Positions 16,486-31,764 of a DNA stretch of 49,171 bases are shown in pieces. A model generated the notes under the pieces. The model made no database searches. It saw only the letters and a program-made list of their open reading frames with translations, and was not told the DNA's origin. A program made the position numbers and the translations under genes. The stretch is from contig CAIWNX010000056.1 of NCBI GenBank assembly GCA_903914175.1, forward strand, positions 1 to 49,171, written 5' to 3'. Each line of letters begins with the position of its first letter. Within the stretch, counting starts at the first letter, position 1. The DNA comes from an uncultured beta proteobacterium. Lineage in GTDB: Bacteria; Pseudomonadota; Gammaproteobacteria; Burkholderiales; Burkholderiaceae_C.

Positions 16486-18432
16486 TCATGCTGCCGCCTT
16501 GACCGGTGTGAAGGTTTTCGCATCGTCGATGCGCAGCGTAGCGCTGACGCTGCCGGTACGGCCGTCTTCGAACTTGACCTGGGTTTCAATGAACTGCGTG
16601 GTCTTGCCGCCGTACAGGGCATCGATCAGCACATCGTATTTTTCTGCAATGAAGCCGCGGCGTACTTTGTTGGTACGGGTCAGTTCGCCATCGTCAGCGT
16701 CGAGTTCTTTGTGCAGAACCAGGAAGCGACTGACCTGCGAGCCGGCCAGCAGCGCGTCCACGCTCAGGTCGGCGTTGACCTTTTCCACGCATTCCTTGAT
16801 CAACTGGTAGACCTCCGGCTTTTGCGCCAGATCGGTGTAGCCGGCGTACGGCAGGTTGCGGCGCTCGGCCCAGTTGCCGACGGCGTCGAAGTCGATGTTG
16901 ATCATGACGCAGACTTTTTCACGTCCGTCGCCATAGGCCACCACTTCCTTGATGTGCGGGAAGAACTTGAGTTTGTTCTCGACGTACTTGGGTGCAAACA
17001 TGGCACCGTCGTTGGCGCCGCCCTTGATGCGGCCCACGTCTTTGACGCGGTCAATGATCTTGAGGTGGCCGTTGGCGTCCAGGAAGCCGGCATCGCTGGT
17101 GTGGTACCAGCCGTCGGCGCTCAGCACTTCGGCAGTGGCTGCCGGATTCTTGAAGTATTCCTTGAGCAACCCTGGTGACTTGACCAGAATCTCGCCGTTC
17201 TCGGCAACCTTGATTTCAACGCCGGGGCAGGGCACGCCAACGGTGTCGGCGCGCGCTTCGTTGTCCGGCTGCAGGCAGACAAAAACGGCGGTCTCAGTGG
17301 AGCCGTAAAGTTGCTTCAGGTTGATGCCGATGGAGCGGTAGAAACTGAACAGGTCCGGGCCGATGGCTTCACCGGCGGTGTAGGCGACACGCACGCGGCT
17401 CATGCCCAGGTTGTTGCGCAGGGGGCCGTAGACCATCAGGTTGCCCAGTGCGTAGAGCACGGTGTCTTTGAGACCCAGCGATTTGCCATCGGTCCTGGCG
17501 GGACCCACGCGCTGCGCCACTGACATGAAGTAGTGGAACATGCGCCGCTTGATGGCGCCTGCGTCTTCCATGCGGATCATCACGCTGGTGAGCAGGCCTT
17601 CAAACACGCGCGGTGGCGCGAAGTAATAGGTGGGCCCGACTTCCTTGAGGTCGATGGTGACCGTGGCTGCCGACTCCGGGCAGTTGACGACGTAGCCACA
17701 GGCCAGCCATTGTGCGTAACTGAAAATGTTCTGGCCAATCCAGGCTGGCGGCAGATAGGCCAGCACTTCTTCGGTGTGGGTTAGCTTGTCAAAATCAGCG
17801 CCAGCCTTGCCCCGGTTGAGCAGCGAGTTGTGCGTGTGCACGACACCCTTTGGGTTGCCGGTGGTGCCGGAGGTGAAGAACATGGCGCCAACATCGGAGG
17901 CCTTGATCTGGTCAACGGACTTCCTGAAAAAATCGGTGTGGGCGGCGGCAAAGGCCTCGCCGCTGGCGAGCAGGTCGTCAATCGCCGCCAGCCCAGGCTC
18001 GGCGTAGTTGCGCAGGCCGCGCGGATCGTCAAAGTAGATGTTGCTCAGTTGCGGGCAGTCATCGCGAATTTCCAGCAACTTGTCGACCTGCTCCTGATCT
18101 TCGGCGAAAGCAAAACGCACCTCGGCGTTGTTGATGGGGAATACGCACTCGGGAGCTGCAGCGTCCTGGTAGAGCGGAATCGGCACGGCGCCAAGGGACT
18201 GCACTGCCAGCATGGTGGCGTACAGGCGTGGGCGGTTGGCGCCGATCACGATCATGTGATCGTCCCGGCGCAGACCGGCCTGGTGCAGGCCGCAGGCCAG
18301 TCGTTCTACCATCTTTGCCAGATCGGCCCAGGACAGCGCCTGCCAAATGCCATATTCTTTTTCACGCATCGCCGGCTCGGTCGGTCGCTGTGCGGCGTGA
18401 TCAAGAAGAAGTCGAGGAAATGTGGTCTGCAT
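16486..18432 (-). CDS. AMP-dependent acyl-CoA synthetase (long-chain type)
   Basis: This 648-residue adenylate-forming enzyme activates a carboxylic acid with ATP and CoA. The P-loop-like MFFTSGTTGNPKGVVHTH, the YGSTETAVF block, GWYHTSDAGFLDANGHLKIIDR and a late lysine region (GELTRTNKVRRG) are the standard motifs. Length and the N-terminal HAAQRPTEPAMREKEYGIWQALSW fit the FadD15/long-chain subgroup, but those enzymes also take aryl acids. It is the first gene of the Liv unit, with livG overlapping or 20 bases behind. Expression probably starts in the palindrome-rich gap shared with the Crp/Fnr-type regulator. A second, unrelated CoA ligase closes the same unit. Confidence 0.88.
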   Translation of the reverse strand: MQTTFPRLLLDHAAQRPTEPAMREKEYGIWQALSWADLAKMVERLACGLHQAGLRRDDHMIVIGANRPRLYATMLAVQSLGAVPIPLYQDAAAPECVFPINNAEVRFAFAEDQEQVDKLLEIRDDCPQLSNIYFDDPRGLRNYAEPGLAAIDDLLASGEAFAAAHTDFFRKSVDQIKASDVGAMFFTSGTTGNPKGVVHTHNSLLNRGKAGADFDKLTHTEEVLAYLPPAWIGQNIFSYAQWLACGYVVNCPESAATVTIDLKEVGPTYYFAPPRVFEGLLTSVMIRMEDAGAIKRRMFHYFMSVAQRVGPARTDGKSLGLKDTVLYALGNLMVYGPLRNNLGMSRVRVAYTAGEAIGPDLFSFYRSIGINLKQLYGSTETAVFVCLQPDNEARADTVGVPCPGVEIKVAENGEILVKSPGLLKEYFKNPAATAEVLSADGWYHTSDAGFLDANGHLKIIDRVKDVGRIKGGANDGAMFAPKYVENKLKFFPHIKEVVAYGDGREKVCVMINIDFDAVGNWAERRNLPYAGYTDLAQKPEVYQLIKECVEKVNADLSVDALLAGSQVSRFLVLHKELDADDGELTRTNKVRRGFIAEKYDVLIDALYGGKTTQFIETQVKFEDGRTGSVSATLRIDDAKTFTPVKAAA

Positions 18433-20872: not shown

Positions 20873-21199
20873 GTGGCAGAACTTCACATCTCGCGCGAGC
20901 ACACGCTGGGCTTGCATGCAGCACGCAAACTGGCCTTTACCTGGGCCGAGCATGTGGAAGCGCAGTTCGGTATGGTCTGCACTTACGAAGAGGGAAGATC
21001 CCGGGATGAGGTCTGCTTTACGCGCAGCGGCGTCGATGGCACCTTGACCGTCACCAAGGACCGGTTCGAACTCCGGGCGCAACTCGGGTTTTTGGTCGGT
21101 GCATTCAAGGGCCGGATCGAGAGTGAAATTGTGAAGAATCTCGATGACCTGCTCAAACCCGCTCCCGCCGCGAAAAAGACGCCCGTGCGAAAAGCTTGA
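20873..21199 (+). CDS. polyhydroxyalkanoic acid system family protein
   Basis: This 108-residue protein has the HISREHTLGLHAARKLAFTWAE opening, a GVDGTLTV segment and FELRAQLGFLVGAFKGRIESEI, matching the PHA system/granule-region family (PHA_gran_rgn type). Such proteins are encoded near PHA genes; their biochemical role is not settled. The start is a GTG at 20873 with CGGAG eight bases upstream; no ATG fits. The C-terminus is Lys/Ala/Pro-rich. It marks the start of the storage-lipid gene group. Confidence 0.82.
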   Translation: MAELHISREHTLGLHAARKLAFTWAEHVEAQFGMVCTYEEGRSRDEVCFTRSGVDGTLTVTKDRFELRAQLGFLVGAFKGRIESEIVKNLDDLLKPAPAAKKTPVRKA

Positions 21200-21214
21200 G
21201 CGTTGGCGTCAGAC

Positions 21215-21469
21215 TCAGCTTAGAGATTTGATCAGGTCGATATAGGCCTGCATCGCATCCTTGTTGCTGGTGCCTTTCAGGCCGTTCCAGGCATCCCATT
21301 TGGCGCGACCGATCATGTCGCCAAAGCCCGGCTTTTTCTCGCTGTTGTCTCCGGCGCTTCCTTGCTTGTAGAGGGCGTAGAGTTTGAGCAGCGTGGCGTT
21401 GTCAGGGCGCTCGGTCAAATTCTTCGAGTTGGCAACTGCGGCCTCGAATTTTGTTTTCAGGTCTGACAT
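21215..21469 (-). CDS. acyl-CoA-binding protein (ACBP)
   Basis: This 84-residue protein is a complete ACBP domain: FEAAVANSKNLTERPDNATLLKLYALYKQGSAGDN, GFGDMIGRAKWDAWNGLKGTSNKDAMQAYI. The lysine and tyrosine residues that hold the CoA 3'-phosphate and adenine in known ACBPs (YALYKQ, KWDAW, Y near the end) are all present. It should sequester and carry long-chain acyl-CoA in the cytoplasm. It is divergent from the WS/DGAT gene, which consumes acyl-CoA, with a shared 146-base gap. ACBP is common in eukaryotes but patchy in bacteria. Confidence 0.93.
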   Translation of the reverse strand: MSDLKTKFEAAVANSKNLTERPDNATLLKLYALYKQGSAGDNSEKKPGFGDMIGRAKWDAWNGLKGTSNKDAMQAYIDLIKSLS

Positions 21470-21489
21470 GATTCTCTCCAGAATAAGGC

Positions 21490-21512
21490 AATACTCCAGC
21501 CATTGGGGTATT
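21490..21512. promoter_or_regulatory. inverted repeat in the ACBP-WS/DGAT divergent gap
   Basis: AATACTCCA and TGGGGTATT form 9-base arms with one mismatched pair around a 5-base centre. It lies 21 bases upstream of the ACBP start and 104 bases upstream of the WS/DGAT start. A role as operator for the nearby TetR protein is speculative. Confidence 0.3.
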
Positions 21513-21615
21513 TGCTCGGTATCTTAAGCTGCGTTTTGGTTACAGAATACAAAATATGTGGGCTTTGCTGAACCGCATATTTATTGCTTCCAATTTTTTC
21601 GAGTCTGGAGTTTTT

Positions 21616-23199
21616 ATGGTTACCCGAATCGTTGCCAAGAGTGCCGCCAACAAGAACGCGAGCCGGGGGGCGGGTGCTGGACCGGTTGCAGACCGTGCCG
21701 GCAAGACGGTGCGCCGCGCTGCCAGGGTGGTTCAAAAGAATGTGTCGGACGCCGTCAGCGGCACGCTGGGCTTGACCGGCGAGCGCATGAGCAAGGTGGA
21801 TACAGCCTGGTTGCGTATGGACTCCCCCTGCAATTTGATGATGATCGTGGGTGTCTGGATTGTCAAACCCGGTCTGGCTTACCAGGCGGTATGTGAGCGC
21901 ATCGAGGAGCGGCTTCTCAAATACCCGCGTTTTGGCCAACTGGCGCAGCAGGATGCGGCCGGCGCTACCTGGATCAAGGACCCGGACTTCCAGATCGAGC
22001 ACCATGTGGTGCGCGAGACGCTGACGGCCAAATCGCGCGATCAGGAACAGAAAGCATTGCAGCAGCGACTGGGCGAACTGGCCGTGACGCCGCTGGACAT
22101 GAAGCGTCCCTTGTGGCAGTTTCACCTGGTTGAACATTACCAGGGCGGCTCGGCGCTGATGGTGCGCATGCACCACTGCATCGCCGACGGGATTGCCCTG
22201 ATTTCGGTCACCCAGTCGATGGTCGATGGCGGTACCGCACCGCCCAAACGCCGCAGCCGGGGCGTACACCACACCGGGATCGAGGGAGCCGAGGAATGGC
22301 TGGCCGACAGTCTGCTGCGACCCTTGACCGATGTGGCCGTGAAGGCCTTGGGTGCCGCTGGAGACCGCGCGGTCGACGCCATGGAAATGATGACGGAGCC
22401 GCAGAAGGGTCTGTCGGGCTCGCTGGAACTGGCCAAACTGGCATATCAAGTGCTGCGCGACGGTGCGGCTCTGGCGCTCATGCCTGACGATTCGCCAACC
22501 CGGCTCAAGGGTACCCCTGGTACCAGCAAACGGGTGGCGTGGTGCCAGCCGATCCCGCTGGAGGAAGTCAAGGCGGTTGGCAAGGCCTTGAATTGCTCGA
22601 TCAATGATGTTCTGCTGAGTTGTGTCGCTGGCGCCATCGCTCAGTATTTGAAGCAGTTTGGCGATGAGGTTGCCGGCAAGGAAATCCGTGCCATGGTGCC
22701 GGTCAACCTGCGGCCGCTGGAGCAGGCCTACAAACTGGGTAACCGTTTTGGTCTGGCGCCGGTCGTGCTGCCGATCGGCATTGAAAACCCGGTTGAGCGG
22801 GTCTACGAGGTGCGCCGACGCATGAGTGAAATGAAAGGCAGCATGCAGCCGCTTTTGGCTTTTGGTTTGTTGGCAGTGGCCGGGCTTTTGATCAAGCCGG
22901 CGCAGGACGCCATGCTTGGCCTGTTTTCGAAGAAAACCACGGCCGTCATGACCAATGTGCCAGGGCCGCGCGAAAAGTTGAAGTTCTGCGGTTCCACGCT
23001 GGAACAAAGCCTGTTCTGGGTGCCGCAGTCCGGCACCGTCGGTCTGGGGGTCTCGATTCTGAGCTACGGCGGCGGTGTGCAGTTCGGCGTCATCAGCGAC
23101 GCCACGCTGTGTCCGGAGCCGCAAAAAATTATCGATCAGTTTGAGCCTGAATTTGCCAAGTTGGCCTTGATCGCCTTGATGCTGCCCTGGGGTGAATGA
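21616..23199 (+). CDS. wax ester synthase/diacylglycerol acyltransferase (WS/DGAT)
   Basis: WS/DGAT enzymes esterify a fatty alcohol or diacylglycerol with acyl-CoA at the inner membrane, making wax esters or triacylglycerol. The 527-residue protein carries the active-site HHCIADG (His186, His187, Asp191) of the HHxxxDG family, the preceding PLDMKRPLWQFHLVE block, the NDVLLSCVAGAIAQYL segment, VPVNLR and the late TNVPGPREKLKFCG block. It has an unusually long basic, alanine-rich N-terminus of about 55 residues before the domain starts at MSKVDTAWLRMDSP. The start at 21616 has TGGAG nine bases upstream. Neighbours are ACBP, a lipase, a phasin and a fatty acyl-CoA reductase. Confidence 0.93.
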   Translation: MVTRIVAKSAANKNASRGAGAGPVADRAGKTVRRAARVVQKNVSDAVSGTLGLTGERMSKVDTAWLRMDSPCNLMMIVGVWIVKPGLAYQAVCERIEERLLKYPRFGQLAQQDAAGATWIKDPDFQIEHHVVRETLTAKSRDQEQKALQQRLGELAVTPLDMKRPLWQFHLVEHYQGGSALMVRMHHCIADGIALISVTQSMVDGGTAPPKRRSRGVHHTGIEGAEEWLADSLLRPLTDVAVKALGAAGDRAVDAMEMMTEPQKGLSGSLELAKLAYQVLRDGAALALMPDDSPTRLKGTPGTSKRVAWCQPIPLEEVKAVGKALNCSINDVLLSCVAGAIAQYLKQFGDEVAGKEIRAMVPVNLRPLEQAYKLGNRFGLAPVVLPIGIENPVERVYEVRRRMSEMKGSMQPLLAFGLLAVAGLLIKPAQDAMLGLFSKKTTAVMTNVPGPREKLKFCGSTLEQSLFWVPQSGTVGLGVSILSYGGGVQFGVISDATLCPEPQKIIDQFEPEFAKLALIALMLPWGE

Positions 23200-23205
23200 A
23201 GCCGG

Positions 23206-23988
23206 TTATTCGTCTTCGTCTTCGAGTTCGACTTTTGCCATTTCTACATCCAGGCGTTCCATGGCGTCCAGCGGTTTGGTGGCAGCGGCCTGCTGGTAGA
23301 GACGGGTCGCTTCCAGCATCATCTTGTCGCCTTCGAGCATGAGCATGGCGTTGGCATATTCGATCATGCCGATGACCGATTCGAAATTGAGCTTGAGCGC
23401 CTGCTGCAGCAGCGCCAGGCCGGTGTCCTTCTTGGCGCCATAGGTCATGCCGCCAATGAGGGAGCCGACCTTGTCGATGACCTCGGCGTGAAATGACCCC
23501 AGTGCGATGTGGGCATCGGCGTGGTTCGGCTGCAGTTTGATAACGTTTTCCAGAGACACCTTGACCTTGCTGCCCAGACCCTGGGCCAAGGCCTTGGCCA
23601 CGCTGATGCCCTGGCTGTAGCGGCTCAGGGCATAGGCCTGCCAGTAGTGGGCGTTGATATTCAGGGGGTTGCTCTTGGCCTGCGCCTCGGCCCGGCGGGC
23701 CACTTCCAGAAACAGTTCAAGGCGGGCCTTTTCCTGCTTTTCAAGGTAGGTGGCGTAGACGCATGCCGCCTTGTTGGCTACGGTCAGGCCGTCGCCACCA
23801 ATTTTGAGTCCCAGGTCCACCGCTTTCTGGAATTCGCCGCTATGGAACAGGGCCCATGCCTGTAGCACCTTGACATCTTTCGGCAAGGGTTCGGCGTCAC
23901 CGGCGTGCAGGCGTGCCCAGTTCTTTTTGACACTGGCTGCGTCAAACCTGTAGTCGCCGGTATAGGGAAAGGCGGTCCATTGGGCCAT
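23206..23988 (-). CDS. TPR-like hypothetical protein
   Basis: This 260-residue soluble protein is predicted to be almost all helical. It has tetratricopeptide-like repeats, e.g. around VLQAWALFHSGEFQKAVDLG, NINAHYWQAYALSRYSQG, NHADAHIALGSFHAEV and NFESVIGMIEYANAMLML, and an acidic C-terminus (ELEDEDE). No signal peptide is seen. I do not recognise a named family. It is the third gene of a patatin-TetR-TPR unit and ends six bases from the convergent WS/DGAT gene, so a link to lipid storage is plausible but inferred. Confidence 0.75.
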   Translation of the reverse strand: MAQWTAFPYTGDYRFDAASVKKNWARLHAGDAEPLPKDVKVLQAWALFHSGEFQKAVDLGLKIGGDGLTVANKAACVYATYLEKQEKARLELFLEVARRAEAQAKSNPLNINAHYWQAYALSRYSQGISVAKALAQGLGSKVKVSLENVIKLQPNHADAHIALGSFHAEVIDKVGSLIGGMTYGAKKDTGLALLQQALKLNFESVIGMIEYANAMLMLEGDKMMLEATRLYQQAAATKPLDAMERLDVEMAKVELEDEDE

Positions 23989-24008
23989 TGCTGTCTCCTC
24001 CTACCGAG

Positions 24009-24674
24009 TTATTTTTTGTCGTCGTCATTGTAGGCTCCAACCAGTTTGAGCAAGTGTGTACGCTGGCTTTGTTCGAGATAGGGCACTAGCAAATTGAGAA
24101 CGTGTTGTGCGCCGCGCAACAACGCTGCCTGGGCGTTTTCGGGTTCGAGGGCCCGGCGTGGATCGCGTACATATTCAAAACTGAGCCAGTAGGTCAGCAC
24201 CACGACCATGCTGGTGGCCGTGGCCTCGACTTCACGTGTGTCGATGGTGATGGCGCCGCTGCGACTCATGCCGTCGAGCAGGGCGCGCACGGCGCGCGTC
24301 TTGTTTTTCAGGACCGACTGGAAGTGGGTTTCCAGGCGCCGGTTTTTGCTCAGCAGATCGTTGAGGTCGCGGTAAAAGAAGCGGTACTGCCAGATCAATT
24401 CGAACAGGGTGTGCATGAAAAACCAGGCGTCCTCCACGTCACGCACGCCGTCGCTGGCGTTGAGCAGTTCGTTCAAGGCGTGCTCAAAGCGGTCGAAGAG
24501 GGAATTGATCAGTTCGTCTTTGGCCGGGTAATGGTAATAAAGGTTTCCCGGGCTGATGCCGAGTTCGGCCGAGATCAGCGTGGTCGATACATTGGGCTCG
24601 CCGAAGCGGTTGAAGAGCGCGAGTGTGACTTCCAGAATTCGCTCAGCTGTGCGTCGCGGCGCCTTTTTTACCAT
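24009..24674 (-). CDS. TetR-family transcriptional regulator
   Basis: This 221-residue regulator has the N-terminal HTH (RILEVTLALFNRFGEPNVSTTLISAELGISPGNLYYHYPAKDELI) and a C-terminal ligand domain. Its start overlaps the patatin stop by seven bases, so the two are translationally coupled. Proteins of this subgroup sit next to lipid or PHA genes in other betaproteobacteria. The effector may be an acyl-CoA, by analogy with other TetR lipid regulators; the sequence does not prove it. Likely targets are the genes of this island. Confidence 0.88.
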   Translation of the reverse strand: MVKKAPRRTAERILEVTLALFNRFGEPNVSTTLISAELGISPGNLYYHYPAKDELINSLFDRFEHALNELLNASDGVRDVEDAWFFMHTLFELIWQYRFFYRDLNDLLSKNRRLETHFQSVLKNKTRAVRALLDGMSRSGAITIDTREVEATATSMVVVLTYWLSFEYVRDPRRALEPENAQAALLRGAQHVLNLLVPYLEQSQRTHLLKLVGAYNDDDKK

Positions 24675-25921
24675 GAAGGGATTCCCGTATGTGCGACGGA
24701 GCGCACGGTATGGCCCAAATCGTCCATGATTTCCTGCAGTTTGGTAATGGCTTGTCCGACCTGGGTCGGCGCCTTTGCGGGAGCGCTCAAATGGCGCTTC
24801 GGATCATCGAGTGCCTCGTGGTGCAGTGTGATGCCATGGCGCCACAGCTTTTCGGACAGGCCCGTCTTGTGCGAACGCAGCATCCGGCGCGTTTGCTGAT
24901 AGGCGTGTTCGGCCAGTTCGCGCCGCTGGCGGTAGCTGAAGGTGTTGGCCAGATAGAGCTCGGGGTCGCGGTGATCGGGCTCGATCAGGATGATGTCGGT
25001 GTCCGGGTAGACGCGCTCATACTGCCGCATGCCCAGAACCATGCGCGAGTGAATCAGAGAGCGGAAGGTTTGGCTTAGCACAGCCGGCAATCCGCCATCC
25101 ACGATGTGGGGAATGTGGTGCTTTTCAGATGGCAAGCCACGGCGCATGACTTTGGCTACCTGCGGCGCGGTGGCGTTAAACGGCACCAGCGGGTTTAGGC
25201 ATAGCATCAGGTCAACCCCTTGCTCCAGGGCAACCGAGGCATGCATGGTCTTCTTCAACGCGCCGTCGACGTAGTAACTGTCGTCAATTTCCACTGGCGG
25301 GAACAGACCTGGCAGCGCAGCGCTGGCCTGCACCGCTTTGGAGATTGGCACATGATCCCATCCGGGCCGACCAAAAGGCGCAATCTCGCCGCTGTCCAGA
25401 TTGGTCGCCACCAGCGTGAGTTGCGTCTTGAGTTGTCGGAAATCGTTGGTTCGCCCGCCTTGCGAAAACAGTCGCGCCAGTTGCGTGTCGACTTGAGCGT
25501 TAGAAAATATTCCGGCCGGCAGCGCCGGGCTCAGGCGTTCCAGCGCAGAGGTTAGCGACTTGCCACCTACCGTGAACTGCCACAGCGCGGAGACCAGCAG
25601 CGCCGGCGCCATGATGCCGCGGCGGGCAAACTCACCGTAGGCCGGCGCCATTAGCCAAGCCGGGTCGAAACTGTCGGTCGGTTGTCGGTCGCTCTCAATA
25701 AACGAAGCACACAGCTCGCGCGGACTGATCCCGTTGGCCAGTCCGGCAGCGATGAAGCCGCCAGCGGATACACCCACGTAATGCTGCAGGCGTGTGAAGT
25801 CAATTCCGTTGAGCGAATCGTCGAGGGCGCACAGGGCACCAATCTCGTAGATGGCACCGAGCGGTCCGCCACCCGCCAAGGCGAGTCCAATTCTGGGTGC
25901 GAGTGCTGGTTTGTGTTGCAT
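24668..25921 (-). CDS. patatin-like phospholipase/acyl hydrolase
   Basis: This 417-residue patatin-fold serine hydrolase has the oxyanion loop LALAGGGPLGAIYEIG, the nucleophile elbow GVSAG (Ser52) and the DG(A) catalytic Asp (Asp219) in YYVDGALKK. The C-terminal 150 residues form an extra helical region seen in bacterial patatin proteins. No clear signal peptide is present, so it should work in the cytoplasm, and hydrolysis of storage lipid or phospholipid acyl esters is the expected activity. It heads the patatin-TetR-TPR unit. A link to mobilising wax esters/TAG is inferred from context. Confidence 0.88.
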   Translation of the reverse strand: MQHKPALAPRIGLALAGGGPLGAIYEIGALCALDDSLNGIDFTRLQHYVGVSAGGFIAAGLANGISPRELCASFIESDRQPTDSFDPAWLMAPAYGEFARRGIMAPALLVSALWQFTVGGKSLTSALERLSPALPAGIFSNAQVDTQLARLFSQGGRTNDFRQLKTQLTLVATNLDSGEIAPFGRPGWDHVPISKAVQASAALPGLFPPVEIDDSYYVDGALKKTMHASVALEQGVDLMLCLNPLVPFNATAPQVAKVMRRGLPSEKHHIPHIVDGGLPAVLSQTFRSLIHSRMVLGMRQYERVYPDTDIILIEPDHRDPELYLANTFSYRQRRELAEHAYQQTRRMLRSHKTGLSEKLWRHGITLHHEALDDPKRHLSAPAKAPTQVGQAITKLQEIMDDLGHTVRSVAHTGIPSW

Positions 25922-25992
25922 ACAAACAAAGTGTAGGTCTGATCAAGACAGATGGTTGCTGCAATGCAGCATTAAAGCTTGCGCTACCAAGC

Positions 25993-26020
25993 AAAAGAGG
26001 ACGCCACAGCGTCCTCTTTT
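25993..26020. terminator. bidirectional intrinsic terminator after the phasin gene
   Basis: A perfect 12-bp stem (AAAAGAGGACGC pairing with GCGTCCTCTTTT) with a CACA loop and T-runs on both strands lies about 60 bases beyond the phasin stop. It should end the minus-strand phasin transcript before it runs into the patatin promoter region. Confidence 0.88.
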
Positions 26021-26080
26021 AGCAATGCCTGCGCCAATCATTGATCGCAAGCCCCAACGCTGGCGGCCAGCCAGCCAGCA

Positions 26081-26620
26081 TCAATCTGCCGCGACGGCCG
26101 CACTCGGCTTGGACGCTTTGCGTGCGGGTGTGCGCTTGGCAACTGGCTTGACGGCTGGTGCCTTCTTGGCAACGACCTTCTTGGCTGCCTTGGGCGCAGC
26201 GCCTTTGGCTGACAATTTCTGGACGCTCTTGTTCAATGCGTCGATGCGGGCGATCAGGGCGCTGACGTCTTTGGCGGAGGGAACACCGAGCTTATTCAAG
26301 GCCTTGGCCACGCGATCTTCAAAAATGCTTTCCAGTTTGTCCCATTGGCCCGAGGCTTTGGACGAAATGTCGGTCGCCATGCTTGACATCTTGCTGCTGG
26401 CTTCCGAGATCTTTTCTTCGGCAACCGATTGCGTCTTGCGCTGCATATTGACGCCTTCCTTGATGAGAGCCTCGATCGCTTTAGAGCCTTCAGCCTGGGC
26501 CTTGGTGAAGGCGCCGACGCCGGCTTGCCAGATCTGTTGTGCAGAGTCTTTGACCGACCCGGCCAGCGGCAGGGCACTCTTGTTTGTTGATTTGGATCTT
26601 TTTTGCAGTTTTGTGACCAT
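26081..26620 (-). CDS. phasin (PhaF/PhaI type) with histone-like tail
   Basis: This 179-residue granule-associated protein has an N-terminal phasin domain (about residues 18-130: SVKDSAQQIWQAGVGAFTKAQAEGSKAIEALIKEGV, then VEDRVAKALNKLGVPSAKDV-like PHA-granule segment) with coiled-coil helices. A C-terminal tail (about 138-175) rich in Lys, Ala and Pro with AKK/AKR repeats resembles histone H1 and PhaF of Pseudomonas. The domain coats storage granules; the tail probably binds DNA and could tether granules to the nucleoid. The start at 26620 follows CTGGAG. It is divergent from the fatty acyl-CoA reductase gene, across a gap with an 18-bp palindrome. Confidence 0.88.
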   Translation of the reverse strand: MVTKLQKRSKSTNKSALPLAGSVKDSAQQIWQAGVGAFTKAQAEGSKAIEALIKEGVNMQRKTQSVAEEKISEASSKMSSMATDISSKASGQWDKLESIFEDRVAKALNKLGVPSAKDVSALIARIDALNKSVQKLSAKGAAPKAAKKVVAKKAPAVKPVAKRTPARKASKPSAAVAAD

Positions 26621-26734
26621 GGGAAACTCCAGGGAGGTTGAGAAATTTGACCTTGCCGCACACAGCAACTCGGCTTGGTGGTTTGGACTTTAAGGCTTGC
26701 GCACGGCGCTGTGTAGGTGGGGACTCCTAAATTC

Positions 26735-26752
26735 CTAGGGCGCGCGCCCTAG
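26735..26752. promoter_or_regulatory. 18-bp perfect palindrome in the phasin-reductase gap
   Basis: CTAGGGCGCGCGCCCTAG is perfectly symmetric and lies 70 bases upstream of the reductase start and 115 bases upstream of the phasin start. Placement between two divergent lipid-storage genes suggests a shared operator. The binding protein is unknown; the TetR protein encoded at 24009 is one candidate. Confidence 0.55.
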
Positions 26753-26821
26753 CGCGGGTTTACGCTGAAGCATCAAGGTCCGGATTTCGGCAAGAATGCG
26801 TTAATTCAAATGGGGTGTTCT

Positions 26822-28819
26822 ATGCATTACTTCGTCACCGGCGCCACCGGTTTTATCGGCAAACGCCTGGTCAAAAAATTGCTGGCGCGCAAGGGCTCGG
26901 TGGTTTATTTCCTGCTCCGTAAAGAGAGCGAGGCCAAGCTTGCTGATTTGCGCCAGTACTGGGGCGCCAGTGCGACGCGCGTGGTGCCGGTCTTTGGCGA
27001 CCTGACCAGCAAGAAGCTCGGGGTTTCGGCTGATAGTCTGAAACAGCTCAAGGGCCAGATTGATCACTTCTACCACCTGGCAGCGGTGTATGACCTTGGC
27101 GCCGACGAAGCCAGTCAGATCGCTGTCAACATTGACGGCACGCGCAACACGGTGGAGTTGGCCAAGGCGCTGGACGCCGGGCATTTTCACCTTGTCAGTT
27201 CGATCGCTGCGGCCGGACTCTACGAAGGCGTGTTCCGCGAGGACATGTTTGACGAGGCTGAAAACTACGATCACCCCTACTTCATGACCAAGCATGAAAG
27301 CGAAAAGATTGTGCGCCAGGAATGCAAAGTGCCGTGGTCGGTGTACCGACCGGCGATGGTGGTGGGCGACAGCACAACGGGCGAGATGGACAAGATTGAT
27401 GGCCCTTATTACTTCTTCAAGCTGATCCAGCGCATGCGCCAGTTGCTGCCGCCCTGGATGCCCTCGGTCGGTCTGGAGGGTGGTCGCATCAACATCGTAC
27501 CGGTGGACTTTGTGGTCGATGCGCTGGACGTCATCAGCCACAAAGCGGGGATCGCCAAGAAGTGCTACCACCTGGTTGACCCGGTCGGTTACCGGGTGGG
27601 AGATGTGCTCGACATCTTCAGCCGCGCCGCCCATGCGCCCAAGATGAACCTGTTTGTCAATGCTGCGTTACTGGGCTTTATTCCGCGCAGCGTGGTCAAG
27701 GGCCTGATGGCGCTGGCACCGGTGCGCCGGGTGCGCAATGCCGTCATGAAAGATCTGGGGCTGCCGGCGGACATGCTGACCTTTGTTAACTACCCGACAC
27801 GTTTTGATTGCCGCGAGTCGCTCGCCATGCTCAAGGGTTCGGGTGTGGCTTGCCCTAACCTCAAAGATTACGCCTGGCGACTGTGGGATTATTGGGAGCG
27901 TCATCTGGATCCCGATCTGCACATCGACCATTCCCTGCGCGGCACGGTGAGCGGCAAGGTGGTGCTGATCACGGGCGGTTCGTCGGGGATCGGCCTGGCG
28001 GCCGCGCACAAATTTGCCGAAGCGGGTGCCATCACACTGATTTGCGGACGTGATCAGGACAAACTCAATGATGCTTGCAAGGAAGCCAAAGCCAAGGGCT
28101 ACAGCTTTGAGGCCTATCCGGTGGACATTGCCGAAATGGGCGATTGCGATCGTTTCATCAAGCAAGTCGTCGCTGACCATGGGGGTGTTGATTTCCTGAT
28201 CAACAACGCGGGCCGCTCGATTCGCCGCGCCATCGAGTCCAGCTACGACCGCTTTCACGATTACGAGCGCACCATGCAGCTCAATTATTTTGGGTCCCTG
28301 CGCGTCACGATGGGCTTGTTGCCGGGCATGGTTGCGAAAAAAAGGGGCCATGTCGTCAATATCAGTTCAATCGGTGTTCTGACCAATGCGCCACGGTTCA
28401 GCGCCTATGTCGCTTCCAAGGCGGCGCTCGATGCCTGGACGCGCTGTGCGTCCAGCGAGTTTGCGGATCAGGGAATTTCCTTTACGACCATCAACATGCC
28501 GCTGGTGCGCACACCCATGATCGCGCCCACCGGTCTGTACAACAACGTGCCGACCCTGTCGCCGGAAGAAGCGGCCGACATGATTGCCCAGGCCTGTATC
28601 TTCAAGCCGGTGCGTGTGGCGACAAGGCTCGGTATCACGGGGCAATTGCTGCATGCTTTGCTGCCGCGTGTGGCGCAAATCGCCATGAACACCAGTTTTC
28701 GCATGTTCCCGGACTCCGGCGCGGCCAAGGGGGCCAAGCCCGGCGACAAACCGGTCCGTCAGCAACTGTCGCCGGAGGCGATTGCGCTGCAGCAGATGAT
28801 GCGGGGCATCCATTTCTGA
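26822..28819 (+). CDS. two-domain fatty acyl-CoA reductase (alcohol-forming, Maqu_2507 type)
   Basis: This 665-residue protein fuses two reductase domains. The N-terminal extended SDR domain has GATGFIG (residues 7-13), HLAAVYDLGADE, VSSIAAAGLYEG and Tyr153-x3-Lys157. The C-terminal classical SDR has GGSSGIG (385-391), NNAGRSIRR, NISSIGVLTNAPRFSAY and Tyr529-x3-Lys533. Order, length and these blocks match the Marinobacter fatty acyl-CoA reductase Maqu_2507 as I remember it, which reduces acyl-CoA through the aldehyde to the fatty alcohol with NADPH. The start at 26822 has TGGGGTG upstream; 26810 is also in frame. The alcohol product is the substrate for the WS/DGAT 3.6 kb away. An intrinsic terminator follows. 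Confidence 0.92.
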   Translation: MHYFVTGATGFIGKRLVKKLLARKGSVVYFLLRKESEAKLADLRQYWGASATRVVPVFGDLTSKKLGVSADSLKQLKGQIDHFYHLAAVYDLGADEASQIAVNIDGTRNTVELAKALDAGHFHLVSSIAAAGLYEGVFREDMFDEAENYDHPYFMTKHESEKIVRQECKVPWSVYRPAMVVGDSTTGEMDKIDGPYYFFKLIQRMRQLLPPWMPSVGLEGGRINIVPVDFVVDALDVISHKAGIAKKCYHLVDPVGYRVGDVLDIFSRAAHAPKMNLFVNAALLGFIPRSVVKGLMALAPVRRVRNAVMKDLGLPADMLTFVNYPTRFDCRESLAMLKGSGVACPNLKDYAWRLWDYWERHLDPDLHIDHSLRGTVSGKVVLITGGSSGIGLAAAHKFAEAGAITLICGRDQDKLNDACKEAKAKGYSFEAYPVDIAEMGDCDRFIKQVVADHGGVDFLINNAGRSIRRAIESSYDRFHDYERTMQLNYFGSLRVTMGLLPGMVAKKRGHVVNISSIGVLTNAPRFSAYVASKAALDAWTRCASSEFADQGISFTTINMPLVRTPMIAPTGLYNNVPTLSPEEAADMIAQACIFKPVRVATRLGITGQLLHALLPRVAQIAMNTSFRMFPDSGAAKGAKPGDKPVRQQLSPEAIALQQMMRGIHF

Positions 28820-28871: not shown

Positions 28872-28900
28872 GAGTGTTTTTGCAGCGGAGAGCGACAACA

Positions 28901-29965
28901 ATGATTCTGGTAACCGGTGGCGCAGGCTTTATTGGCGCCAATTTTGTGCTGGACTGGCTGGCCCAGTCCGATGAACCCGTTCTTAATCTGGACAAACTGA
29001 CCTATGCGGGGAACCCGGAGAATCTGGCGTCCCTGCAGGGCGATTCGCGCTATCTGTTTGTGCAGGGCGATATTGGCGACGCACCACTGGTGGAGCGCCT
29101 GCTGGCCCAGCATCAACCACGTGCAGTAATCAATTTTGCGGCCGAGAGCCATGTTGACCGCTCCATTCACGGCCCCGAAGACTTTATTCAAACCAATGTG
29201 GTGGGCACGATGCGCTTGCTGCAGAGTGTGCGCGCCTACTGGCAGGCTTTGACCGATGCCCAGCGCATCGAATTCCGCTTTCTGCACGTCTCGACCGACG
29301 AGGTTTATGGCAGTCTGTCACCCACGGACCCGGCGTTCACCGAGGGCAACAAGTTAGAGCCGAATAGCCCGTATTCGGCCAGCAAGGCGGCCAGCGATCA
29401 TCTGGTGCGAGCTTGGCTGCATACCTATGGCCTGCCGGTTCTGACCACCAACTGCAGCAACAATTACGGGCCGCTGCATTTTCCCGAGAAACTGATTCCG
29501 CTGATCATCGTCAATGCCCTGGCCGGCAAACCCCTGCCGGTCTACGGCGATGGCCTGCAGGTGCGCGACTGGCTTTATGTGAAGGACCATTGCAGCGCCA
29601 TTCGCCGTGTGCTGGCAGCCGGGCGGGTTGGTGAGATCTACAACGTCGGCGGCTGGAACGAGAAGCCCAATATCGAGATCGTGAAGACCATTTGCACCCT
29701 GCTCGACGAGTTACGCCCCAAGAGTGATGGCAGCAGCTACCAGACGCAGATTACTTATGTGCAGGACCGCCCGGGGCACGACCGGCGTTATGCCATCGAC
29801 GCCAGCAAAATCGAGCGCGAACTGGGCTGGAAGCCGGCAGAGACTTTTGCCACTGGCATCCGCAAAACCGTGCAGTGGTACCTGGACAACCAGGACTGGG
29901 TGACCCATGTGCAGTCCGGCGCGTACCGCGACTGGGTGCAAACGAATTACGCGGGTCGCGGATGA
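28901..29965 (+). CDS. rfbB: dTDP-glucose 4,6-dehydratase
   Basis: RfbB/RmlB converts dTDP-glucose to dTDP-4-keto-6-deoxyglucose, the second step to dTDP-L-rhamnose. The 354-residue protein has [10 protein letters not shown] near the N-terminus, the [11 protein letters not shown] loop, the dehydratase triad STDEVYG (Thr-Asp-Glu) and [12 protein letters not shown] (Tyr-x3-Lys). The start at 28901 is chosen over a frame extending to 28874, which lies in the terminator. Its stop overlaps the rfbD start as ATGA. Confidence 0.97.
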
Positions 29966-30852
29966 AGCTACTGCTTTTTGGCAAGGGCGGGCAGGTTGGC
30001 TGGGAATTGCAGCGCAGCTTGGCGCCGCTGGGCGAGATCGTCGCGCTGGACTTTGACAGCACGGATCACTGTGGCGACTTCTCTAATCTCGCGGGTCTGG
30101 CCGACACGGTGCGCGCGGTCAAGCCCGATGTCATTGTCAACGCGGCCGCGCACACGGCAGTCGACAAGGCTGAGAGCGAACCTGACTTGGTGCGCACGCT
30201 CAACGCGCTGGCGCCTGGCGTGCTGGCGCAGGAGGCGGCACGCATCGGGGCCTGTCTCGTGCACTACAGCACCGACTATGTTTTTGACGGCAGTGGCACA
30301 CGGGCCTGGCGCGAAGCGGACAAACCAGCACCGCTCAATGTCTACGGCCAGACCAAGCTCGAAGGCGAGCAGTTGATTCAGGCCACCTGCCCGCAGCATC
30401 TGATTCTGCGCACCAGTTGGGTTTATGCCGCACGTGGTGGCAATTTTGCCAAGACCATGTTGCGCCTGGCGCAGGAGCGCGAAAGGCTGACGGTGATCGA
30501 TGACCAGTTCGGCGCACCGACGGGCGCTGAGTTACTGGCCGACGTGACGGCGCACGCCATTGCCCAGTTGTGCCAGCGTCCCGAAGATGGCGGCCTGTAC
30601 CATCTGGTTGCCAGTGGCGAAACCAACTGGCATGCCTACGCAAACTACGTGCTGGCGCAGGCCAAGCTGCTGCAACCTGAGTTGCAGTTCAAAGCCACTG
30701 AAGTGCTGCCCGTTGCCAGCAGCGCCTTCCCGACCCCGGCCCGACGGCCGCACAATTCGCGACTGGATACGCGCAAGTTGCAAACCACCTTTGGTTTAAG
30801 CTTGCCCCATTGGCAACAAGGCGTGACCCGCATGCTGGCAGAAACGCTTTAA
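29962..30852 (+). CDS. rfbD: dTDP-4-dehydrorhamnose reductase
   Basis: RfbD/RmlD is the last enzyme of dTDP-L-rhamnose synthesis. It has 296 residues with [10 protein letters not shown] (nucleotide loop), [23 protein letters not shown] and YGQTKLEGE (Tyr-x3-Lys). The ATG at 29962 overlaps the rfbB stop, so translation is coupled. rfbA follows after 18 bases. Confidence 0.96.
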
Positions 30853-30870
30853 CCTGAAATGCAGAGAAGA

Positions 30871-31764
30871 ATGACACAACGCAAAGGCATCATCCTGGCA
30901 GGCGGCTCCGGCACGCGACTGCACCCGGCCACACTGGCCATGAGCAAGCAACTGCTGCCGGTCTACGACAAGCCGATGATCTATTACCCCTTGAGCACGC
31001 TGATGCTGGCCGGGATACGGGACATTCTGGTCATCAGCACGCCGCAGGACACGCCGCGCTTCCAGCAGTTGCTCGGCGATGGCGCGCAGTGGGGGCTGAA
31101 CCTGCAGTATGCGGTGCAGCCCAGCCCCGATGGTCTGGCGCAGGCCTTCATCATTGGGGACAAATTTCTGGGCAATGCACCAAGCGCGCTGGTGCTGGGC
31201 GACAACATTTTCTATGGACACGACTTTGCGCCACTGCTGGCCAGGGCCGATAAGAATGAGAGTGGCGCCACTGTTTTTGCTTACCATGTGCAAGACCCCG
31301 AGCGCTACGGTGTGGTCGCGTTTGATGCCCAGGGCAAGGCCAGCAGCATCGAAGAAAAGCCGCTGGAGCCCAAAAGCAACTATGCCGTGACTGGCCTGTA
31401 TTTTTACGACGATCAGGTCGTGGACATCGCCAAGGCCGTCAAACCCAGCGCCCGTGGCGAACTGGAAATTACGGCGGTCAATCAGACTTACCTGGAACAG
31501 GGTCAGCTCAATGTGCAAATCATGCAGCGTGGCTACGCATGGCTTGATACCGGTACGCACGACAGTCTGCTCGAAGCCAGTCAGTTCATTGCGACGCTGG
31601 AGCGTCGTCAGGGGCTGAAAGTGGCCTGTGTCGAAGAAATCGCCTGGCGCAACGGTTTTATTGACGATGTCCAATTGCAAAAGCTGGCGCAGCCGCTGGC
31701 AAAAAATGGCTACGGCCAGTATCTGATGCGCATGTTGGTCGAGCGCAGCCGCCACGAACCCTGA
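30871..31764 (+). CDS. rfbA: glucose-1-phosphate thymidylyltransferase
   Basis: RfbA/RmlA joins glucose-1-phosphate to dTTP, giving dTDP-glucose, the first step to dTDP-rhamnose. The 297-residue protein shows the [13 protein letters not shown] nucleotide loop, [20 protein letters not shown] and LGDNIFYG, then [20 protein letters not shown]. The start at 30871 matches family N-termini; another ATG at 30859 is in frame. It lies in the rfbBDAC order, with rfbC 14 bases on. Confidence 0.96.

Follow-up and report, generated by a model that had tools for sequence, protein, structure and literature searches.

Does a phasin encoded among genes for wax ester synthesis serve polyhydroxyalkanoate (PHA) granules, or does it coat a wax ester droplet? 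The question is raised by a block of eight genes at positions 20873-28819 of contig CAIWNX010000056.1, from an uncultured betaproteobacterium; "the window" below means the whole analysed stretch of 49,171 nucleotides. We consider it likely that the block is a module for the synthesis, storage and turnover of wax esters. Across the order Burkholderiales, the distribution of its phasin, a member of Pfam family PF05597, suggests that coating wax droplets is a likelier role for this protein than a general one in the PHA system. The block and one conserved intergenic element comprise:

20873-21199, plus strand: PHA_gran_rgn ("polyhydroxyalkanoic acid system") protein, 108 residues (PF09650, 100.6 bits; TIGR02610)
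21215-21469, minus strand: acyl-CoA binding protein (ACBP), 84 residues (PF00887, 101 bits)
21616-23199, plus strand: wax ester synthase/diacylglycerol acyltransferase (WS/DGAT), 527 residues (PF03007, PF06974, TIGR02946)
23206-23988, minus strand: TPR-fold protein, 260 residues, possible carrier of a hydrophobic ligand (PF13431; AlphaFold2 model)
24009-24674, minus strand: TetR-family regulator, 221 residues (PF13972, PF00440)
24668-25921, minus strand: patatin-like hydrolase, 417 residues (PF01734, 107.5 bits; GVSAG and DGA)
26081-26620, minus strand: phasin with a Lys/Ala/Pro-rich tail, 179 residues (PF05597, 159.4 bits; TIGR01837)
26755-26769, plus strand: conserved word CGGGTTTNNGCNGAA, possible promoter or operator element, 52 bases 5' of the FAR start
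26822-28819, plus strand: two-domain fatty acyl-CoA reductase (FAR), 665 residues (PF07993 and PF00106; NF005539)

Genes and predicted pathway

The window proteins were scanned against the Pfam and NCBIfam profiles with curated cut-offs. The seven genes named in the original prediction are all present and intact, each scoring above its Pfam cut-off, and an eighth, the TPR-fold protein, was absent from that list. The PHA_gran_rgn protein, WS/DGAT, phasin and FAR also pass the NCBIfam cut-offs.

WS/DGAT scores 357.6 bits against TIGR02946 (cut-off 309.95), and its motifs are complete: HHCIADG at residues 186-192, PLW, ND and NVPGP. The HH, C, D and G of the catalytic motif are invariant across 13 aligned relatives. 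The open frame starts at 21556, ahead of the start at 21616. FAR scores 1017.1 bits against NF005539/PRK07201 (cut-off 549), a model that we take to cover MAQU_2507, and the match spans residues 5-669. In the 669-residue form, PF07993 lies at residues 9-238 and PF00106 at 383-572; an alternative in-frame ATG is found at 26810. Both nucleotide-binding-type motifs, GATGFIG and TGGSSGIG, are complete, and YxxxK is present in both halves. By this architecture FAR is of the MAQU_2507/FCR1 type, with a predicted reductase activity. When FAR was compared with the PDB (phmmer, E 1e-10; 60 of 411 matched sequences viewed), every best stretch spanned one half of the protein only. Thus, motif and domain scans agree with the intact HHCIADG and the two-domain reductase of the original prediction. 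The phasin exceeds the cut-offs of both PF05597 (28.8 bits) and TIGR01837 (99.6 bits, cut-off 94.7), and its open frame extends to a TTG at 26668.

The phasin, patatin, TetR and TPR genes follow one another on the same strand; 159 bases separate phasin from patatin and 20 bases separate TetR from TPR, while the beginning of TetR overlaps the last 7 bases of patatin. Two gene pairs are divergent, phasin and FAR with 201 bases between them and ACBP and WS/DGAT with 146.

For this gene set we infer each biochemical step and the roles of the ACBP, patatin, TetR, TPR and PHA_gran_rgn proteins. FAR would reduce acyl-CoA to a fatty alcohol, which WS/DGAT would join to a second acyl-CoA to give the wax ester, with ACBP buffering the acyl-CoA. 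The phasin would coat the neutral-lipid droplet, and its basic tail may tether the droplet to DNA. The patatin-like hydrolase would free acyl chains, TetR would regulate the phasin-patatin-TetR-TPR unit, and the TPR-fold protein may carry a hydrophobic intermediate.

Conservation of gene order

FAR relatives were compared as 14 aligned sequences, and the window proteins were placed by tblastn on 100 loci. The loci called named here are the best 80 of 585 confirmed FAR loci and lean toward close kin; 56 of them, the full-flank set, extend 9.5 kb or more upstream of FAR. The nearest belong to metagenome-assembled genomes (MAGs): two of uncultured betaproteobacteria (98 and 93% identity), one of Rhodoferax and one named Aquabacterium (92% each). 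The host of the window is thus probably a Burkholderiales bacterium similar to Rhodoferax.

All 56 full-flank loci contain the phasin, in each case beside FAR, followed in frequency by TetR (45), TPR (43), patatin (39), WS/DGAT and ACBP (21 each) and PHA_gran_rgn (18). The complete eight-gene order of the window is kept in 15, and TPR, TetR, phasin and FAR occur together in 43. Among the 78 named loci whose upstream flank reaches 1 kb or more, 77 have the phasin directly beside FAR, L111 being the exception. This repetition across genomes exceeds chance expectation and marks the block as a conserved unit. We rejected a chance assembly of unrelated lipid genes as vanishingly improbable, given that order and orientation recur across named genera with the phasin beside FAR. 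The original prediction had held that a neighbourhood not conserved elsewhere would speak against it; the same gene set and order were found in other genomes.

WS/DGAT is not always near FAR. In the fetched stretches, some of which are incomplete at their ends, all 11 loci named Acidovorax are without patatin and WS/DGAT, and WS/DGAT is also missing from 9 of the 10 named Hydrogenophaga. Thirty-five full-flank loci have no WS/DGAT near FAR; 27 of these were searched for a copy elsewhere in the genome, and all 27 have one, at 59-67% identity. Two loci with a WS/DGAT nearby (L078 and L085) were added to the same search, bringing the matches to 29 of 29.

Co-occurrence of FAR, WS/DGAT and the phasin

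The distribution of the genes was followed in 250 genomes of the order Burkholderiales, with FAR called at E 1e-100 and WS/DGAT as a match to the window protein at E 1e-10. Some distant WS/DGAT paralogues escape the latter threshold, including one in the source genome itself (contig C100), and G003 was counted as positive though its WS/DGATs are all distant. Phasin matches under the curated cut-off (G139, G168) were excluded. The genomes are related, and Fisher p values are indicative only.

FAR was found in 33 genomes, WS/DGAT in 35, the PF05597 phasin in 37, PF09650 in 43 and PhaC_N in 170. FAR and WS/DGAT coincide in 32 genomes. This co-occurrence, together with family membership and conserved order, supports the wax ester pathway of the original prediction, whose biochemical steps stay at the level of prediction. 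Wide FAR neighbourhoods, examined in 20 of the 33 FAR-positive genomes, contain a close WS/DGAT in 13 and the phasin in 15. In G002 the FAR gene and a WS/DGAT-TPR-TetR-patatin-phasin group lie on different contigs.

The same data bear on whether the block makes mainly triacylglycerol (TAG), with WS/DGAT acting as a diacylglycerol acyltransferase and FAR serving some other purpose, for example detoxification or the making of membrane fatty alcohols. The WS/DGAT family does include this acyltransferase activity, and G083 keeps a WS/DGAT-phasin-patatin-TetR-TPR block with no FAR detected. However, the near-complete overlap of FAR with WS/DGAT argues against a TAG store, as does the persistence of FAR beside the phasin where WS/DGAT sits elsewhere, and none of the eight genes matches a Kennedy-pathway enzyme in the Pfam scan. 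We therefore judge a mainly TAG-storing role improbable.

Is the phasin a PHA protein?

The PF05597 phasin is present in 35 of 35 WS/DGAT-positive and 33 of 33 FAR-positive genomes of the order but in only 2, G052 and G234, of the 135 that have PhaC and no WS/DGAT. Most PhaC-positive genomes (133 of 170) lack this phasin. Seven families contain PhaC-positive genomes of both kinds; within them the phasin occurs in 11 of 11 with WS/DGAT versus 2 of 28 without, and these within-family repeats argue against the effect of a single lineage. It is this pattern that makes a wax-droplet coat likelier than a general PHA protein in Burkholderiales. PHA_gran_rgn behaves similarly (33 of 35 versus 10 of 135), although it tracks WS/DGAT less strictly than the phasin does, a result that limits the wax-droplet reading.

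An alternative is that the block is a mixed island for PHA and neutral lipid. The phasin and PHA_gran_rgn would then act on PHA granules or mixed inclusions, and their place next to the wax genes would reflect joint management of the two stores. PF05597 and PF09650 both bear PHA names, PhaC accompanies them in 37 of 37 and 43 of 43 genomes, respectively, and the source genome (a 4.05 Mb assembly of 322 contigs, at 96.88% completeness and 5.26% contamination) has one PhaC. That single PhaC lies on another contig, however, with none in the block, and among PhaC-positive genomes the phasin follows WS/DGAT. We hold a mixed island to be unlikely, and the PHA machinery and mixed inclusions proposed in the original prediction are accordingly less well supported than its wax pathway: both proteins track WS/DGAT more closely than PhaC, even though PhaC is never missing from the genomes concerned.

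A stronger form of the droplet-coat reading is that the PF05597 phasin of Burkholderiales, and probably PHA_gran_rgn too, are dedicated wax-ester droplet proteins, encoded with their own hydrolase, regulator and TatT/BstC-like lipid carrier. The block would then encode a lipid-droplet module that is complete in itself and separate from PHA granules, in cells also capable of making PHA. We put this forward tentatively. Because the sample holds no genome with WS/DGAT and without PhaC, we lowered our estimate of it from an even chance to slightly below that.

Several observations weigh against assigning the block and its phasin to wax esters. PhaC is present in all 35 WS/DGAT-positive genomes, and since every genome with WS/DGAT or the phasin holds it, a wax role and a PHA role of the phasin can be told apart only in part. 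Three WS/DGAT-positive genomes have no FAR (G083, G159 and G195), G052 (84% complete) has FAR and the phasin without WS/DGAT, and G003 carries distant WS/DGATs only. G234 retains the phasin and TetR, with FAR and WS/DGAT not detected. Two other WS/DGATs of the source genome, located on contigs C119 and C100, outscore the block copy under the catalytic Pfam model (254.2 and 181.5 versus 118.8 bits), so that the block copy may account for only part of the activity. Finally, in a sample of 303 genomes of the class, 8 of the 14 with the phasin have no FAR.

In that class sample, searched with FAR at E 1e-80, FAR was found in 11 of the 303 genomes. Seven of these FARs are at least 55% identical to that of the window, two of them in genomes of its own family (G000 and G049), and the phasin is above cut-off in six of the seven, G289 being without it. 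Four others, at 46-50% identity, come from genomes with no phasin above cut-off (0 of 4), which limits the phasin reading. Since the association of phasin and wax genes is weaker outside the order, we confine it to Burkholderiales.

Two single loci deserve description. The phasin and TetR genes of G234 (L173, G234:C1:645000-664900) adjoin rmlB/rmlD, as the window block also lies near rml genes, and are perhaps a remnant of the block. In G487, from outside the order (L164, G487:C30:115000-134900), the phasin lies about 0.6 kb from FAR and a TetR gene is found on the opposite side of FAR.

Patatin and the TPR-fold protein

The catalytic dyad of the patatin-like hydrolase is complete, with GVSAG at 50 and DGA at 219. 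The TPR-fold protein scores 24.9 bits against PF13431 (TPR_17), barely over the cut-off of 24.4. A Pfam scan at E <=0.001 gives TPR_17 only, with no match to the TatT/BstC family PF16811. Its AlphaFold2 model (pLDDT 92.7) has as top structural matches 8g52, BstC (7t1s), TatT and PTPIP51, mostly carriers of hydrophobic ligands, and the modelled fold suggests that this protein is possibly such a carrier. Identity to BstC, TatT (3u64, 4di3), the TPAT protein 8g52 and PTPIP51 (7cc7) is 14-20%. BstC and TatT are exported proteins; the TPR-fold protein, in contrast, has no obvious signal peptide by eye.

Intergenic elements and neighbouring genes

The word CGGGTTTNNGCNGAA is found at a similar distance in 45 of 79 named FAR upstream regions (0.00 in shuffles) and could be a promoter or regulator site. 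The intergenic region between ACBP and WS/DGAT (window 21470-21615) has conserved words of its own, CA.AATAG in 20 and GTATCTTA[AC]G in 10 of 26 relatives. A common TetR operator for the two regions was considered and is not shown, because CGGGTTTNNGCNGAA occurs in 0 of the 26 ACBP-WS/DGAT intergenic regions.

FAR is directly followed by rmlB/D/A-like sugar nucleotide genes (window 28898-31764). RmlB adjoins FAR in 27 of the 67 named loci whose downstream flank is 1.3 kb or longer, and thus surface-polysaccharide genes are frequent neighbours of the block. Upstream of the block, a gene for an AMP-binding acyl-CoA synthetase-like protein (PF00501, window 16486-18432) adjoins an apparent ABC transporter gene pair; it might be a source of acyl-CoA.

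Significance

The studies of wax ester enzymes cited here concern Acinetobacter, Marinobacter and mycobacteria. If Rhodoferax, Acidovorax, Hydrogenophaga, Ramlibacter and related genera share a conserved wax module, wax esters would be a carbon store that has drawn too little notice in bacteria common in the environment. Should the phasin prove to coat wax droplets, its automatic annotation as a PHA-granule protein would be misleading in Burkholderiales, and a single cell would contain two protein-marked storage compartments, the sorting between which is directly testable.

Comparison with known systems

The WS/DGATs of Acinetobacter and Marinobacter (PDB 7nxg and 6chj) share family, catalytic motif and NVPGP with the window protein but are distant from it (phmmer E-values of 1e-22 to 1e-24). 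Unlike these, the window WS/DGAT has an N-terminal extension, and it aligns to them in two separate stretches.

The Lys/Ala/Pro-rich tail of the window phasin is a trait also of PhaF. The Pseudomonas phasins of the PhaF/PhaI type presumably belong to PF05597, the Pfam family of the window phasin. In Burkholderiales the PF05597 phasin goes with WS/DGAT and FAR, whereas more than half of the phasin genomes in the class sample lack FAR. Another parallel is the Rhodococcus pair MLDS/MLDSR, described as a DNA-binding droplet protein and a regulator encoded in the same operon (PMC5676593). The window phasin resembles it, by analogy, in its basic tail and in a gene run shared with TetR.

In size, FAR is like MAQU_2507 of Marinobacter and FCR1 of Mycobacterium tuberculosis, reductases of about 650 residues; the window protein is a predicted reductase of this kind. 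FCR1 (Rv3391) is reported to be 40% identical to MAQU_2507 over 639 aligned residues and to use NADPH in making fatty aldehyde and alcohol (PMC3522743).

The closest precedent for the block is a set of Burkholderiales WS/DGAT scaffolds in which ACBP is adjacent to WS/DGAT (Galvan et al. 2023, PMC10351704). Two of them add a polyhydroxyalkanoic acid system protein and a short-chain dehydrogenase/reductase (SDR) that is 58.8 or 59.2% identical to MAQU_2507, so that WS/DGAT, ACBP, the MAQU_2507-like SDR and the PHA system protein are shared with the window block. Another scaffold has a phasin, read there as part of PHA synthesis. The words "patatin" and "TetR", for two genes of the window block, do not appear in the main text of that paper (PMC10351704). 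In the open-access literature, searched by title and abstract opening, no paper was found that assigns the phasin or PHA_gran_rgn to wax esters. Thus, the grouping of WS/DGAT, ACBP, FAR and PHA system protein in Burkholderiales is known, and what is new is the assignment of the phasin and the lead offered by the TPR-fold protein.

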